This document shows, in pieces, positions 20,063 to 25,469 of a stretch of DNA of 64,000 nt (position 1 is the first letter of the stretch; each line of letters opens with the position of its first letter). The DNA is from Streptomyces sp. TLI_053. Lineage in GTDB: Bacteria; Actinomycetota; Actinomycetes; Streptomycetales; Streptomycetaceae. The stretch is taken from positions 9,079,501-9,143,500 of the forward strand of contig NZ_LT629775.1 in assembly GCF_900105395.1 (NCBI RefSeq), read 5' to 3'. The notes below the pieces were generated by a model. That model ran no database searches. It had not been told where the DNA came from and worked only from the letters and a program-made list of their open reading frames with translations. The position numbers and the translations under genes were made by a program.

Positions 20063-20229
20063 TTCGTCTACTTTTCTGTAGACATTCGCGCGGTGCGGGG
20101 GTGGCGATAAGGGCAACTGCTCGGGTGTGGCTGGGTGGTGTGGCTGGGTGGTGGGGCGGGGCGATGGGGCCGGTCGGTGGCGGTGGGTGCCGGGTGTGCT
20201 CTCCGGTCGGGGTCGGACGCATTGGTCGG

Positions 20230-20260
20230 TCTGCATATGCAGTCGATCGACATATGCAGA
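20230..20260. promoter_or_regulatory. 31-bp palindrome upstream of the M4 peptidase gene
   Basis: Perfect 10-bp arms TCTGCATATG and CATATGCAGA around an 11-base centre that contains TCGATCGA. It is AT-rich within GC-rich DNA, as expected for a regulator site in the promoter of the downstream secreted peptidase. Confidence 0.55.
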
Positions 20261-20392
20261 GAGATGGCCTATGTTGATCCGCAGGACGGACCGCCGGCTC
20301 CGGAGAACGGACGAGCCGTGGGGGCGGGCGTCCGCCGTCCGCGCATGGCCTGGCACGCCGTCAGGCCGGCCGCTTCCCGTGGGAGGACCGCA

Positions 20393-23212
20393 GTGCATCA
20401 CCGTTCCCGTACACCCGGACCCAAGCTGCTCGGTGTCGCGATCGCCGTCGTGCTCGGCCTCGCAGTGGCCGTGCCACCCGCCTTCGCCGGACCGGCCGGG
20501 GGACCGTCCGCCGACGCCGACCCGGTGCCCGGGCTGGTCGCCGGGTCGGACACCGGGGCGCCGCAACTGGTCACCGGCCTCGCCGAGGCGGCCCCCGGCG
20601 ACAACCCGGCCGAGGCGGCCCGCGCCCACCTGGCCGCCCATCAGGACCGCTACCGGATCGACCCCGGACAGCTCGTCGAAGCCGGCGTGGAGCGTGCCGC
20701 CGACGGCCGGCGCACCGTCAGGTTCGAGCAGCGGCACGGCGGCATACCCGTCTTCGGGGCCCGGTACCTGGTTCACCTGGTCGGCGAAGGCAATGGACAG
20801 CGGGTCGAGTCGGCCGGCGGCAAGTACTTCACCGGACTCACCGCCCCGACCGTGCAGAGCGTTCCGGACGAGGTGCTGCGACGGCTCGCGATCGGCGCGG
20901 TCCAGGACCCGGTGGCCCGCGCCGGCGCGACGGCCGAGGACCGTGGCCCGGTGGTGCTGCCCGGCGGTGCCGGCCGGCTCGCCCGCCACTTCACCGTGCG
21001 CGGGAGCGACCCGGCGGTGTGGGCGGCGAAGGCGCAGGAGGTGTTCGTGGACGCCTCGACCGGGGAGGTCGCGCTCTCCTACCAGGTACGCGCCCCGTAC
21101 CCGCTCGACGTCCCGGGCGCCGCGGCATCGGGCGTCGCATCGGGCGTCGCGGCATCCGCCGCCGCGACCTCTCCCGACGCGGCCGCCGCCGCACCGGCCC
21201 TCGAACCCGCCACCGGCACCGCGCCCGACGCCCTCGGCCGCCCCGCCCGGGTGAACATCGGCCGACTCCCGGACGGCACCTACCAGCTCGTCGACCTCAC
21301 CCGCCCCGCCACCGTCACCACCTACGACGCGGCCGGTCGCGACGAGCTGGACTTCAGCACCCTGCCCGCCGACGCCCACCCCGCCGCCTCGCCGACCACC
21401 GACTTCCCGGCCGTCACCGGTACCAGCGGCGCCACCGACGCCCACCTCAACGCCGCCGCCGTGTACGACTTCTACCGCGACCGACTGGGCCGCGACGGGA
21501 TCGACGGCAAGGGCGGACCGATCACCTCCGTCGTGAACGTCACCAGCTTCGGCGAGCCCCTGGACAACGCCTACTGGGACGGCCGGAAGATGGTCTACGG
21601 AGGCGGCAGCGGCAAGTACCTCCCGTTCTCCGCCGCGCGCGACGTGGCCGGCCACGAGATGACGCACGGCGTCGTGAAGCACACCGCGGAGCTGGTCGGA
21701 CTCGGCCAGTCCGGTGCCCTCGACGAGGCCGTCGCCGACTACTTCGGCAACGCCATCGAGGTGACCGGCCGAGGCATGCCGATGACCGACCCCAGGGCCG
21801 CGCTGCTCGGTGAGGACCTCTGCCGCACCGGCACCCCCGAGGCCTGCGCCGGCCGCCGGCTGGACGACCGCCGCACCACCGTCGCCGACTACGTCGGAGC
21901 CCCCGCCGGGGTCGACAACGGCGGCGTGCACCTCAACTCCACCATCTTCTCCGGCGCGTTGTGGGACATCCGGCGCACCCTCGACCCGCTCCTCGCCGAC
22001 CGTCTGGTCTACCGCGCGCTGGCCGAGTACCTCACCCCGCTGGACGACTTCGTCGACGCCCGCAACGCGGTGCTCGCCGCGGGCCGCACCCTCGGTCTCT
22101 CCCGCGCCCAACTCCGCACCGTGGCCAGCGCCTTCGACGCCCACGGGATCAAGGACGGCTGGCAGCGCCGGATCGGCGTGGACAGCCGGCCGCTGCTGCG
22201 CGAACTCTCCACCGAGAGCGTGGCACCGGACGTCGCGGCCGGCCGCTGGGTGGCGGCCACCGCGGGCGAGGGCGCCAAGGGCAGCATGGCCGTGTACACG
22301 GGCGCCGTCGCCGGCTCCGCCGAGCCCGCCCGGCTCAGCGCGGAGGACGGCCGCTCGCACGGCTGGCCCGCGACCGACGGTACGACGGCCGCGTGGGTGG
22401 CGATGGGGCCGGGGGCCGACGGTGGTTGGGGCATGGAGGTGCTGGCCCGGCCGCTCGACGGTGGCCCGGCGCGCAGCGTCCAGCGCGGCGCGAACCAGTA
22501 CTTCGGCGATGTCCGGGTCTCCGGTGGGGACGTCGCCTTCCTGATGACGGACTACGCCACCGGCCGCGGCGGGCCGGTGCTCTCCCGCGCCGGCGCCCCG
22601 GCGGTGCCGATCGCGCTGCCGGAGGGCCACCGGGCCTCCGCCCTCGCCTTCCGGGACGGCCTGCTCGCCTGGACCGAGAGCTGGCAGGTCGGTGAGCGGA
22701 CGGTGAGCGCGCCGACGGTCTACTCGCTCGCCGCCGGCAAGGTCGTCGCCCAGTACGTGGTGGACGACGCGAACGCCGCCGCCGGGACCGAGGTCGGCAG
22801 CACCCGACTGGCCGGTGGCCGGCTGCTGTGGGTCGAGACCCCCTTCGACCGGACGAAGGGCAGCACGATCCGCTCCGGCGCGCTGGACGGCTCCGGAGTG
22901 AGCGACCTCCTGCCCGCGGGCCCGAGGCTCGGCACCGGCACCGAGCCGCGCCGGATCTCCGGCCTCACCGCCTCCGACCGGGCCGTCACCTTCGCCGAAG
23001 CCGCTCGCCCGGTGACGGGCGGCACCAGGAACACGGACCTGCCCAAGCTCTGGCAGCTCCCGCTCACCGGCGGCACCCCGGAGCGGATGTCCTGCAACCG
23101 GGGCGGCCAGTACTCCCCGGTGGCCGACCGGGGGACCCGGGTGGTCTGGCTGGACGCCACGGCGGGCCGTACCGACCTGGTCGTGCGCGAGCGCGCGGCC
23201 GGCACCTGCTGA
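20393..23212 (+). CDS. Secreted M4 (thermolysin-like) metallopeptidase with C-terminal propeller-like domain
   Basis: 939 residues. The start GTG (VHHRSRTPGPKLLG) follows GGGAGGACCGCA and leads straight into a signal peptide ending near AFA-GP. An FTP propeptide (RYRIDPGQLVEAGV, HGGIPVFGARYLVHL) is followed by the catalytic domain: zinc motif HEMTH at 421-425, third ligand Glu 445 in LDEAVADYF, and NGGVHLNSTIFS. After about residue 600 a long repeat-like region (RWVAATAGEGAKGSMAVY, AAWVAMGPGADGGW) resembles beta-propeller blades and may bind substrate or cell wall. A Ser/Ala/Val repeat (ASGVASGVAAS) links prodomain and catalytic domain. Longer than classical M4 enzymes because of the C-terminal part. 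Confidence 0.9.
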   Translation: MHHRSRTPGPKLLGVAIAVVLGLAVAVPPAFAGPAGGPSADADPVPGLVAGSDTGAPQLVTGLAEAAPGDNPAEAARAHLAAHQDRYRIDPGQLVEAGVERAADGRRTVRFEQRHGGIPVFGARYLVHLVGEGNGQRVESAGGKYFTGLTAPTVQSVPDEVLRRLAIGAVQDPVARAGATAEDRGPVVLPGGAGRLARHFTVRGSDPAVWAAKAQEVFVDASTGEVALSYQVRAPYPLDVPGAAASGVASGVAASAAATSPDAAAAAPALEPATGTAPDALGRPARVNIGRLPDGTYQLVDLTRPATVTTYDAAGRDELDFSTLPADAHPAASPTTDFPAVTGTSGATDAHLNAAAVYDFYRDRLGRDGIDGKGGPITSVVNVTSFGEPLDNAYWDGRKMVYGGGSGKYLPFSAARDVAGHEMTHGVVKHTAELVGLGQSGALDEAVADYFGNAIEVTGRGMPMTDPRAALLGEDLCRTGTPEACAGRRLDDRRTTVADYVGAPAGVDNGGVHLNSTIFSGALWDIRRTLDPLLADRLVYRALAEYLTPLDDFVDARNAVLAAGRTLGLSRAQLRTVASAFDAHGIKDGWQRRIGVDSRPLLRELSTESVAPDVAAGRWVAATAGEGAKGSMAVYTGAVAGSAEPARLSAEDGRSHGWPATDGTTAAWVAMGPGADGGWGMEVLARPLDGGPARSVQRGANQYFGDVRVSGGDVAFLMTDYATGRGGPVLSRAGAPAVPIALPEGHRASALAFRDGLLAWTESWQVGERTVSAPTVYSLAAGKVVAQYVVDDANAAAGTEVGSTRLAGGRLLWVETPFDRTKGSTIRSGALDGSGVSDLLPAGPRLGTGTEPRRISGLTASDRAVTFAEAARPVTGGTRNTDLPKLWQLPLTGGTPERMSCNRGGQYSPVADRGTRVVWLDATAGRTDLVVRERAAGTC

Positions 23213-23319: not shown

Positions 23320-23529
23320 TCCTTGCCGTGACCGGACCGCCGCTCCCGCCGCAGCAGGCTCGTCGCCGAAGTGCTGGTACCGACGACCCGCCTGTGCGGT
23401 CCAGGTGACGGACCACCGCCCGCCGGTCCCGGCGGCCCGGGCCGCTGAGGTCCTGTCAGCCGAGACCCGGCGACGGCGATCCGACCTCGAACCGGCCTTG
23501 ACCCTCTCTCGGCCGAGCCGACATCATGA

Positions 23530-23715
23530 GCCGTCATGTTCTGACTCCGCCGTCGGGGGAAGTCCGGTCGAATTCCGGCGCTGACCCGCAACGGTAGGCC
23601 GCCGACGGCAGTCGGTGGCGAGCCCGAGTACCCGTCGGCGGAGGCGTGTCCCCTCCTCCCGTCGTGGTCTGCGGCCAGGGGCTCCCGGAGCCGTCGGGCG
23701 GTCCGTCCCGCGCGG
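23530..23715 (+). promoter_or_regulatory. Cobalamin riboswitch
   Basis: The conserved core reads GGGGGAAGTCCGGT, then TTCCGGCGCTGACCCGCAAC and GGTA, followed about 35 bases later by a B12-box variant GAGCCCGAGTACCCGTCGG. This is the P4-P6 and J6/3 signature of the AdoCbl riboswitch class. A 3' hairpin (about 23677-23700, GGCCAGGGGCTCCCGGAGCC region) could be P13. Ends are approximate. It lies 45 bp upstream of the ribosome site of the following gene, so B12 probably blocks its translation or transcription. The rest of 23213-23529 contains only the preceding terminator. Confidence 0.85.
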
Positions 23716-23758
23716 TTGCCGGCGGCCGCCCGTGCGCCCAGGCCCGGAAAGGCCTCGC

Positions 23759-24892
23759 ATGTCCGACTCCGCGCTCCGCCGCCGCCCGCTCCGCCTGCTC
23801 GCGATATCCGCGCTGGCCCTGACCGCCACCCTCCCCGCCGCCACCGCCGCCCAGGCTGCCGCGCCCGTCCCGGCCCTCACCGCGCCGGCCGTCACCGTTG
23901 CGGCCCCGGCCTCCGGCGACAACGCCACCACCTACCGCCCTGACGCCGCCGCGGCCGGCTGGCTCGCGCGCCAGCTGGTCAACGGCGACCACTTCGAGTC
24001 GGTCTTTGACGGCACCGCCTACCCCGATCAGGGCCTCACCATCGACGCCGTGCTCGCCTTCGCCGCCGCGGGCAGCGCCGACCAGGCCGCCGCCCGCGCC
24101 ACCGCCTGGCTCGCCCGCCCCGACATCCTGAGCGGCTACCTCGGCGACGGCACCACCGAGGCCTACGCCGGTGCCACCGCCAAGCTCCTGCTGGCCGCCG
24201 AGGTGCGCGGCGCCGACCCGTCGGCCTTCGGCGGCGTCGACCTGCCCGCCCGGCTGCGCTCCCTGCTGACGCCGAGCGGCCGCTTCTCCGACCGCTCCCA
24301 GTGGGGCGACTACAGCAACGCCTTCGGCCAGTCCCTCGCCCTGATCGCCCTCCAGCGCACCCCCGGTGGGGTACCGGCCCCGGCCGTCGACTTCCTGGCC
24401 GCCGCCCAGTGCGCCGACGGCGGCTTCCCGGTCTCCTTCGGGCAGGCCACCTGCACCGCCGACGCCGACGCCACCGCGCTCGCGGCCCAGGCGCTCGCCG
24501 CCACCGGCCGCAGCGCCAAGGCCAAGGCGGGCCTGGACTGGCTGACGGCCCACCAGAACACCGACGGCGGTTTCGCCGCGGCCGGTGCCACCACCTCCAA
24601 CGCCAACAGCACCGGCCTGGCCACCTCCGCCCTGCTCCCCGGCGGACGGTTCATCAGCGGTCTCAAGGGCTGGAGCAGCCTGGTGAAGCTCCAGCAGGGC
24701 TGCTCGGCCGACCCCTCCGTGCGCGGCGCCGTCGCCTACGACGCCAGCGGCTTCAACCCCGCCAACGCCGCCCGGGCCACCGCTCAGGCCGTCCTCGGCC
24801 TCTCCGGCCAGGGCCTGGCCGGCCTCAGTGCCCACGGCGCCCGCCCGTCCGCCCCGACCCTGGCCTGCCCGGCCCCGGCCGTGCGCCCCTGA
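23759..24892 (+). CDS. Secreted alpha/alpha-barrel (prenyltransferase-repeat) protein, transcobalamin-like
   Basis: 377 residues with a signal peptide (RLLAISALALTATLPAATAAQA). The mature part is built of helical repeats with the prenyltransferase/squalene-oxidase signature: PDQGLTIDAVLAFAAAG, QCADGGFPVSFGQATC, then QNTDGGFAAAGATTSNANST. This is the fold of the alpha-domain of intrinsic factor and transcobalamin. The cobalamin riboswitch directly upstream makes B12 binding at the cell surface a strong inference. The start ATG follows GGAAAGG. The next gene, 58 bp downstream, encodes a small secreted protein that could supply the second (beta) domain. No squalene-cyclase catalytic DxDD motif is seen, so an enzyme role is unlikely. 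Confidence 0.8.
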   Translation: MSDSALRRRPLRLLAISALALTATLPAATAAQAAAPVPALTAPAVTVAAPASGDNATTYRPDAAAAGWLARQLVNGDHFESVFDGTAYPDQGLTIDAVLAFAAAGSADQAAARATAWLARPDILSGYLGDGTTEAYAGATAKLLLAAEVRGADPSAFGGVDLPARLRSLLTPSGRFSDRSQWGDYSNAFGQSLALIALQRTPGGVPAPAVDFLAAAQCADGGFPVSFGQATCTADADATALAAQALAATGRSAKAKAGLDWLTAHQNTDGGFAAAGATTSNANSTGLATSALLPGGRFISGLKGWSSLVKLQQGCSADPSVRGAVAYDASGFNPANAARATAQAVLGLSGQGLAGLSAHGARPSAPTLACPAPAVRP

Positions 24893-24950
24893 GGGTCGCC
24901 CGCCCGGCCGTGACCCGCACTGCCGCCCGCCACACCCCAGGAGCACGCCC

Positions 24951-25421
24951 ATGACCACCTCCGTCCACCCGGCGCGCCGTACCCTCGGCGCCTTCGCCAC
25001 CGCTGCGGCCCTCACCGCCGGCCTGCTCGGCGTCTCCACCGCGACCGCCCCGCAGGCGCAGGCCGCCGCCTGTTCCGGCACCTCCGGCGTCACCGTCGTC
25101 GTCGACTTCACCGCCCTCGGTGGTGGCATCGAGACCGGCTGCGCCCCGGGCGACCCGGCGAGCGGCCTCGCCGCGATCACCGGCGCCGGCTTCTCCTACT
25201 CCTTCCACCCGCGCTTCCCGGGTTTCGTCTGCAAGATCAACGCCCTGCCGACGACCTGCACCAACCCCACCGGCACCGCTTACTGGTCGTACTGGCACGC
25301 CCCGCACGGCGGCCCGTGGTCCTACAGCAGCCTCGGCGCCGGCTCCTACAACCCGGCCCCGGGCGAGGTCGAGGGCTGGTCCTTCGGCGCCGGTGCCCAG
25401 CCGGGCATCACCGCGCCCTGA
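24951..25421 (+). CDS. Secreted DUF4430-like beta-domain protein, transcobalamin C-domain-like
   Basis: 156 residues, signal peptide (TLGAFATAAALTAGLLGVS, cleavage near AQA-AAC). The mature part is short, with paired cysteines (AACSG/ETGCAPG, VCKINALPTTCTNP). It ends in an aromatic-rich segment (GTAYWSYWHAPHGGPWSY, then EVEGWSFG) reminiscent of the DUF4430 domain, the beta-domain of transcobalamin-type proteins. It starts 58 bp after the alpha-barrel gene with its own CAGGAG site, and is followed by a strong terminator, so the two genes form one riboswitch-controlled unit. The DUF4430 label is from pattern and context, and is less certain than the partner. Confidence 0.65.
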   Translation: MTTSVHPARRTLGAFATAAALTAGLLGVSTATAPQAQAAACSGTSGVTVVVDFTALGGGIETGCAPGDPASGLAAITGAGFSYSFHPRFPGFVCKINALPTTCTNPTGTAYWSYWHAPHGGPWSYSSLGAGSYNPAPGEVEGWSFGAGAQPGITAP

Positions 25422-25440: not shown

Positions 25441-25469
25441 AGGGCGCGGTCCGGCCAGGACCGCGCCCT
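25441..25469. terminator. Bidirectional terminator hairpin
   Basis: 12-bp perfect stem AGGGCGCGGTCC with a 5-base loop, between the convergent B12-linked operon and the following minus-strand gene, whose stop lies inside the right arm. Confidence 0.7.

Follow-up and report, generated by a model that had tools for sequence, protein, structure and literature searches.

In a computational analysis of a 64,000-nucleotide stretch of DNA from Streptomyces sp. TLI_053 (hereafter the window, at positions 9,079,501-9,143,500 of a 9.9 Mb genome assembled as one contig), we characterized an operon in which a cobalamin riboswitch is followed by genes for a large and a small protein, referred to here as alpha and beta (Table 1). 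The two open reading frames (ORFs) have their own start codons and lie in different frames, 58 bp apart as given in an earlier note on this DNA, and alpha and beta do not form one chain, unlike the animal family of cobalamin-binding proteins. Each protein starts with a hydrophobic export-type leader, as judged by eye, and a hydropathy rule detected no C-terminal membrane anchor in either; both are presumably exported. Among the ORFs read in the operon there is no gene for the T, A or S component of an energy-coupling factor (ECF) transporter, nor for another transporter, in agreement with the earlier note, which had placed none ahead of a terminator at 25441. An inverted repeat begins at this position, between the operon and a convergent ORF, and a terminator scan based on T runs returned no match at the operon end.

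A covariance-model search, one of the checks that the note had proposed, identified the aptamer with the Rfam model RF00174 at 36.1 bits, over a gathering score of 31.5 (E 1.6e-5), and this was the sole Rfam match over its cut-off in the whole window. The aptamer is of a compact, 120-nt form. In an alignment of 18 sequences, comprising the window riboswitch and those of 17 relatives, 12 of the 27 consensus pairs have, in one or more sequences, changes of both partners that preserve the pairing. A chance match is ruled out by the RF00174 score together with this covariation. The aptamer also scores 127.3 bits with R1, a covariance model that we built from the genus, although this value is not independent, since the window sequence was used in building the model. 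The element had been described as a clear adenosylcobalamin (AdoCbl) riboswitch; the score and the covariation bear out a cobalamin riboswitch, but "clear AdoCbl" is too strong because the score lies only modestly over the cut-off and does not fix the ligand subclass. Directly 3' of the aptamer is the block CCCTCCTCCCGTCGTGGTCTGCGG, identical or nearly so in 10 of 10 correctly placed rows of a leader alignment, window included (an eleventh row, from L063, was misplaced and not counted). A T-run-based scan found no T-run terminator between the aptamer and the start codon, and control by the riboswitch is therefore likely to be exerted at the level of translation.

Table 1. Features of the operon in the window and of related loci elsewhere on the contig (positions are those of the window unless given in Mb or by locus).
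Feature	Position	Strand	Basis or remarks
Promoter-like site, TTGACC-18-CATCAT	23498..23527	+	Consensus scan; just 5' of the riboswitch; not evidence of function
Cobalamin riboswitch aptamer, compact	23534..23653	+	RF00174 score; covariation among relatives
Leader, presumed expression platform	23654..23758	+	Alignment and terminator scan; pyrimidine-rich conserved block right after the aptamer
Alpha gene, 377 aa	ATG 23759, stop 24892	+	ORF reading
Beta gene, 156 aa	ATG 24951, stop 25421	+	ORF reading
Inverted repeat, presumed terminator	25441-25452 / 25458-25469		Perfect 12 bp, loop of 5, without a T run
Anchored alpha and anchored beta of SCO2321/SCO2322 type, with ECF-T, A and S	6.48 Mb (L049)
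Fused beta-alpha-alpha and anchored beta, with ECF-T, A and S	0.78 Mb (L048)		Divergent 475-aa toroid gene and metE nearby
Lone unanchored alpha paralogue	L050:5603-6841, 8.26 Mb		57% identical to window alpha

Beta had been assigned the fold of the transcobalamin beta domain, and structure prediction and fold searches agree. Using an alignment of 60 hand-picked full-length homologues from the 80 loci described below, AlphaFold2 produced a model with a predicted local distance difference test score (pLDDT) of 82.9, exceeding 90 across most of the mature domain, and a predicted template modelling score (pTM) of 0.73. In this model, residues 43-148 form a transcobalamin-type beta-grasp. When the PDB was searched with Foldseek, rows 1-10 were all transcobalamin (E 0.011-0.23), led by the isolated human beta domain (5no0, E 0.011), and the row that followed was 3u7z, a Ruminococcus gnavus protein. 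Similarly, VIA-align with residues 43-148 gave Z scores of 9.3-10.2 for transcobalamin, intrinsic factor, haptocorrin and 3u7z, with root-mean-square deviations of 2.8-3.1 over 93-98 residues, while the next row scored 6.6. According to passages of PMC1796856, a beta-hairpin insert after the helix is typical of the transcobalamin clade, and the model has a strand pair in this place (H72-78, E83-86, E89-96); the predicted structure of beta thus has the beta-grasp with a hairpin insert after the helix that marks the transcobalamin-type soluble-ligand-binding beta-grasp (SLBB) domain. A profile search of the PDB with the beta alignment returned no transcobalamin, and the two alignments shown were low-complexity ones from the Pro/Ser/Ala-rich tails of anchored members. 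Against the NCBIfam SCO2322 family (NF040672), beta scores 27 of 85 bits, below the cut-off.

The alpha model, derived from 49 hand-picked full-length homologues from the same 80 loci, has a pLDDT of 90.0 and a pTM of 0.85, and forms an alpha/alpha toroid over model residues about 58-351. Together with the fold searches, this upholds the proposal that the large protein is an alpha/alpha barrel. Searched by sequence and by fold, alpha comes closest to squalene-hopene cyclase-like and drimenyl diphosphate synthase proteins. Transcobalamin appears in Foldseek rows 34-48 (E 4e-5 to 7e-5) but not among the 50 VIA-align entries listed, of up to 1000 chains, and a profile search of the PDB with the alpha alignment returned cyclases, AprG and complement-type toroids but no transcobalamin. 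Since the nearest solved folds are terpene cyclases, the fold alone does not make alpha a transcobalamin alpha domain. Single-chain structure prediction, another of the proposed checks, therefore supports the transcobalamin fold of beta and the toroid of alpha, while the predicted alpha fold by itself is not specific to transcobalamin. Alpha scores 140.3 of 300 bits against the NCBIfam SCO2321 family (NF053823), below the cut-off.

Both genes are under purifying selection. By a simple counting method, the ratio of nonsynonymous to synonymous substitution rates (dN/dS) is 0.18-0.43 for alpha against 9 orthologues and 0.12-0.28 for beta against 10. These low values argue, at the level of coding sequence, that the pair is in use.

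To place the pair in its genus, we surveyed 70 genomes, the window's included, scoring the pair by a window-type beta gene at high score. The pair is present in 15 of the 70, and an isolated two-gene oddity is ruled out by these relatives. In 10 of the 15 genomes it lies within about 5 kb of an accessory fused beta-alpha-alpha gene, which it directly adjoins in two (L058, L066); a divergent gene for a 475-aa toroid protein intervenes in seven (L059 to L065), and metE and metF in one (L067). Nine of these ten loci continue with ECF genes on the same contig, and the tenth (L065) is cut short by a contig end after the fused gene. The pair stands apart from the cassette in the window genome and in G026, G029 and G043, and G063 has the pair without the accessory ECF-S. 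The accessory ECF-S was found in 17 of the 70 genomes, and 14 of these 17 have the pair (14 of the 15 genomes with the pair); the co-occurrence has a Fisher p of 5e-11, calculated without correction for kinship and not counting a partial ECF-S in G057. Of 13 relatives' loci scanned with Rfam, 12 have a riboswitch over the cut-off 5' of the pair, as the window does, the miss being L070, and a riboswitch at L073, a locus outside the Rfam scan, scored 126.8 bits with the genus-built model.

The flanking genes on both sides of the pair in G026 are the same as those in the window. We found no empty insertion site to match the displaced pair, and among the matches listed the two downstream flanking genes lie together in no genome other than the window's and G026, so which piece moved is a matter of parsimony only. 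Directly upstream of the operon, at 20135-23209 of the window, is a gene for an M4 thermolysin-like metallopeptidase, which is also kept adjacent in G026.

A wider scan, taking one genome per species, yielded 300 encoding stretches, and the best 80 of the 300, selected by beta, were analysed. These 80 loci cover Kitasatospora, Saccharothrix, Lentzea, Actinokineospora, Micromonospora, Salinispora, Phycicoccus, Dactylosporangium, other actinomycetes and metagenome-assembled genomes. The simple gene caller employed missed some genes (e.g., in L070 and L062) and probably set several alpha starts too far upstream, and tblastn was added. With tblastn, alpha was detected in 78 of the 80 loci, ECF-T, A and S together in 67, and any ECF part in 71. 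The genus-built covariance model gave 126 riboswitch matches at E ≤ 1e-6, distributed over 76 loci, and in 73 loci a riboswitch on the same strand lies no more than 2.2 kb upstream of the beta match. A gene was called within 600 nt of 118 of the 126 matches, and all 118 encode alpha, beta, a fusion, the 475-aa toroid or ECF-T; for the remaining 8, no gene was called. Since riboswitches of this kind served to train the model and beta was the criterion for selecting the loci, these counts indicate a consistent association rather than an unbiased census. The link to B12 uptake proposed in the earlier note is thus supported by riboswitch-led ECF cassettes in relatives.

In several Micromonospora loci (e.g., L096, L111 and L135), a soluble pair (alpha, then beta) is followed by an anchored pair in the same order and then by ECF-T, A and S, with a riboswitch 5' of each alpha. 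By the hydropathy rule, the called genes for alpha only comprise 41 unanchored and 63 anchored, and those for beta only 54 unanchored and 46 anchored; seven called genes are natural beta-alpha fusions. The sets of alpha and beta are equal in Kitasatospora and Micromonospora cassettes (a pair, an anchored pair, or a beta-alpha-alpha fusion with a second beta), as expected if alpha and beta form one site between them. A strict 1:1 ratio everywhere was rejected, as some loci of the Saccharothrix/Lentzea type (e.g., L086, L090 and L102) have one called alpha and two betas. A twin-arginine-type leader motif did not separate soluble from anchored forms, being present in 11 of 41 versus 10 of 63 alphas and in 26 of 54 versus 16 of 46 betas.

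A transporter elsewhere in the genome, which the earlier note had advised looking for, was found in more than one form: the two cassettes at 0.78 and 6.48 Mb encode alpha, beta and ECF-T, A and S (Table 1), and BtuF/C/D-type proteins, identified by eye, are encoded in two operons (L052 and L056) that each follow a cobalamin riboswitch. The component names in the 0.78 Mb cassette come from Pfam CbiQ for T, ECF_trnsprt (33.7 of 30.7 bits) for S, and ABC_tran and a cbiO model for A; in the 6.48 Mb cassette, S scores 28.9 of 30.7 bits, and T and A are named solely by similarity to the 0.78 Mb set. None of the profiles indicates a substrate, and that these ECF transporters carry B12 is something we infer from the riboswitches. 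Nine riboswitch matches in the genome are over the Rfam cut-off and three below it. With the genus-built model, the riboswitches of the two cassettes and that of the 475-aa gene score 101.9, 62.8 and 44.7 bits. The last of these is below the cut-off with Rfam, at 28.3 bits, and the metE riboswitch scores 79.2 bits with Rfam. Other riboswitch-led genes, named by eye, encode a CobN-like protein, a NiCoT-like transporter and a ribonucleotide reductase, and the strain probably makes B12 as well as importing it by several routes. For the lone alpha paralogue, no beta gene was called and no riboswitch matched within its 12 kb locus.

Two further observations were made outside the window. The genome's top cobalamin riboswitch (84.9 bits) precedes an operon for a methylmalonate-semialdehyde-dehydrogenase-like and an acyl-CoA-dehydrogenase-like protein, by eye (L054:5269-7178, at 1.63 Mb), an unexpected target. 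The 475-aa toroid protein (L048:11562-12986), encoded divergently from the fused/ECF cassette, has an export-type leader and a riboswitch match of its own. Profile comparison relates its toroid part to the alpha family at 94% probability. A likeness to a beta-grasp, seen by eye in its last ~100 residues, was not confirmed by a profile comparison with the beta family (3.6% probability, with another region aligned); if this region were a beta-grasp, the protein would be a one-chain analogue of transcobalamin.

The fold of beta, its pairing with a toroid, the riboswitches and the ECF genes all point to extracellular capture of cobamides for ECF uptake. We consider it probable that this is an operon for B12 starvation, encoding a transcobalamin-like B12 catcher that is split and unanchored and serves such uptake. 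In this model, low intracellular cobalamin would lead the riboswitch to permit expression of both genes, and the alpha toroid and the beta-grasp protein would be exported separately. Outside the cell, the two would close on a cobamide in the manner of the two domains of transcobalamin, and the loaded pair would pass it to membrane-anchored alpha and beta proteins and an ECF transporter (T, A and S) whose genes lie at other sites in the genome. Going further, it is possible, if more tentative, that the pair acts as a freely diffusing two-part "cobalophore", whose chains come together only on a cobamide and carry it back to anchored alpha/beta receptors, and thence to the ECF transporter. Such a relay might be the Gram-positive counterpart of transcobalamin and its receptor, a comparison we offer with similar reserve, and it could conceivably be what is laid out in Micromonospora and Kitasatospora cassettes, where a soluble set adjoins an anchored one.

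Several results weigh against the catcher interpretation. In both fold and sequence searches, terpene cyclases, squalene-hopene cyclases first, rank ahead of transcobalamin as matches of alpha. No beta match in the PDB reached E ≤ 0.001 with Foldseek, and beta matched no Pfam model at E ≤ 1 (the HMMER filters drop most weak matches); its earlier description as DUF4430-like (PF14478) consequently holds by fold but not by profile. The ECF-S is not identified as a B12 component by any profile, and its nearest NCBIfam model is a folate-type one, far under the cut-off (19.9 and 17.3 of 60 bits). The riboswitches 5' of both cassettes fall just below the Rfam cut-off (30.7 and 31.1 of 31.5), and 9 of the 80 actinomycete loci show no ECF part, some of these being short contigs. 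In the window genome, the pair is detached from any transporter, at distances along the contig of 2.6 and 8.3 Mb from the two cassettes. Alpha is frameshifted in G043 (L068) and lacks its first part in G063 (L070), with beta readable in both, and the pair is therefore dispensable in some lineages. Finally, by eye, the genome also has riboswitch-led B12-synthesis genes besides the two BtuFCD-type operons, so that the need for a scavenger is not obvious.

Some of these points lend themselves to other explanations. The pair might bind cobamides and mainly withhold them from neighbours, or buffer them outside the cell, without feeding the producer's own ECF uptake. The lack of an anchor and of a linked transporter in the window genome, in a producer with B12-synthesis genes led by riboswitches, would fit such a role, but the pair is led by a riboswitch that senses the cell's own B12, and in many relatives it is close to an ECF cassette and anchored alpha/beta copies; we regard withholding as unlikely. 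Slightly less likely still is that the displaced pair, though still expressed, has lost its importance in this strain and is a redundant remnant of an ECF cassette. Its separation from the cassettes, the two alpha/beta sets with ECF genes that remain elsewhere in the genome, and the damaged alphas of L068 and L070 are what such a remnant would predict. However, both ORFs and the riboswitch are intact, the dN/dS ranges given above indicate purifying selection on each gene, and the same displaced arrangement is kept in a second species (L071).

The resemblance of alpha to squalene-hopene cyclase-like and drimenyl diphosphate synthase proteins raises the further idea that alpha is a terpene cyclase or another toroid enzyme, with beta as an accessory and a link to B12 that is regulatory only. 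DxDD is the catalytic motif of type II terpene cyclases and squalene-hopene cyclases, and it occurs in 0 of 50 aligned alpha-family proteins, window included, where the commonest forms at the site are DVDA and DPDA. A terpene cyclase identity was rejected on the absence of this motif, the export-type leader and the presence of the beta partner, even though cyclases are the nearest solved relatives. Given, in addition, the transcobalamin fold of beta and the ECF genes that adjoin in relatives, an enzymatic role is very improbable, and we favour the B12 catcher.

If the B12 catcher is real, bacteria that live by exported chemistry would also export a B12 carrier of animal domain types, split in two. 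It would offer a natural two-chain system in which to study the B12-induced domain closure of transcobalamin, provide a testable function for the SCO2321/SCO2322-like proteins that adjoin actinomycete ECF transporters, and raise the question of whether soil microbes share or steal secreted B12 carriers. It would also bear on the 2007 proposal of a Gram-positive bacterial origin for animal transcobalamin.

Bacterial proteins of this general type have been predicted before. As far as the partial text of PMC1796856 shows, Burroughs et al. (2007) predicted that bacterial proteins combining a toroid with a transcobalamin-type beta-grasp, encoded beside CbiO/CbiQ, are B12 scavengers whose operons often encode an additional extracellular beta protein; those listed are from low-GC Gram-positives, planctomycetes and, less often, euryarchaea, and the bacteria usually lack key B12-synthesis enzymes. 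Actinobacteria enter that same text by name only in connection with ComEA, although the species abbreviations include a few, and the word "riboswitch" is absent. No description of a split actinomycete pair was found in the full-text literature searched, where subscription papers are mostly not covered, and we therefore count it as a new form of a known type of scavenger. In the same literature, no mention of SCO2322-SCO2324 was found, and SCO2321 is mentioned under an unrelated title.

The pair can be compared with four known systems. Animal transcobalamin, intrinsic factor and haptocorrin share with it the toroid and the transcobalamin-type beta-grasp, and are the best solved matches of beta; they differ in being one chain, whereas the window encodes two chains from two genes, bacterial and riboswitch-led, with no sequence-profile match. 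The SCO2321/SCO2322 families (NF053823, NF040672) likewise consist of alpha-like and beta-like proteins adjoining ECF-T, A and S, and the genome has full members at L049. These have a hydrophobic C-terminal anchor and score 392.6 of 300 and 206.7 of 85 bits, in contrast with the unanchored window proteins below both cut-offs. BtuG of Bacteroides, compared by description only and from part of its source (PMC6143338), is similar in capturing B12 extracellularly ahead of a transporter but is a single surface lipoprotein that interacts with BtuB. The fourth are the SLBB/CbiO/CbiQ systems, which, going by passages of PMC1796856, share the toroid and beta-grasp, export, nearby genes for ECF-type A and T, and a predicted role in B12 scavenging. 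These are commonly fused or multi-domain, while the window pair is split, unanchored, from an actinomycete, led by a riboswitch and partly detached from the transporter, in a genome with B12-synthesis genes. Relative to the toroid/beta-grasp scavengers predicted in 2007, the split, free-secreted form is new.

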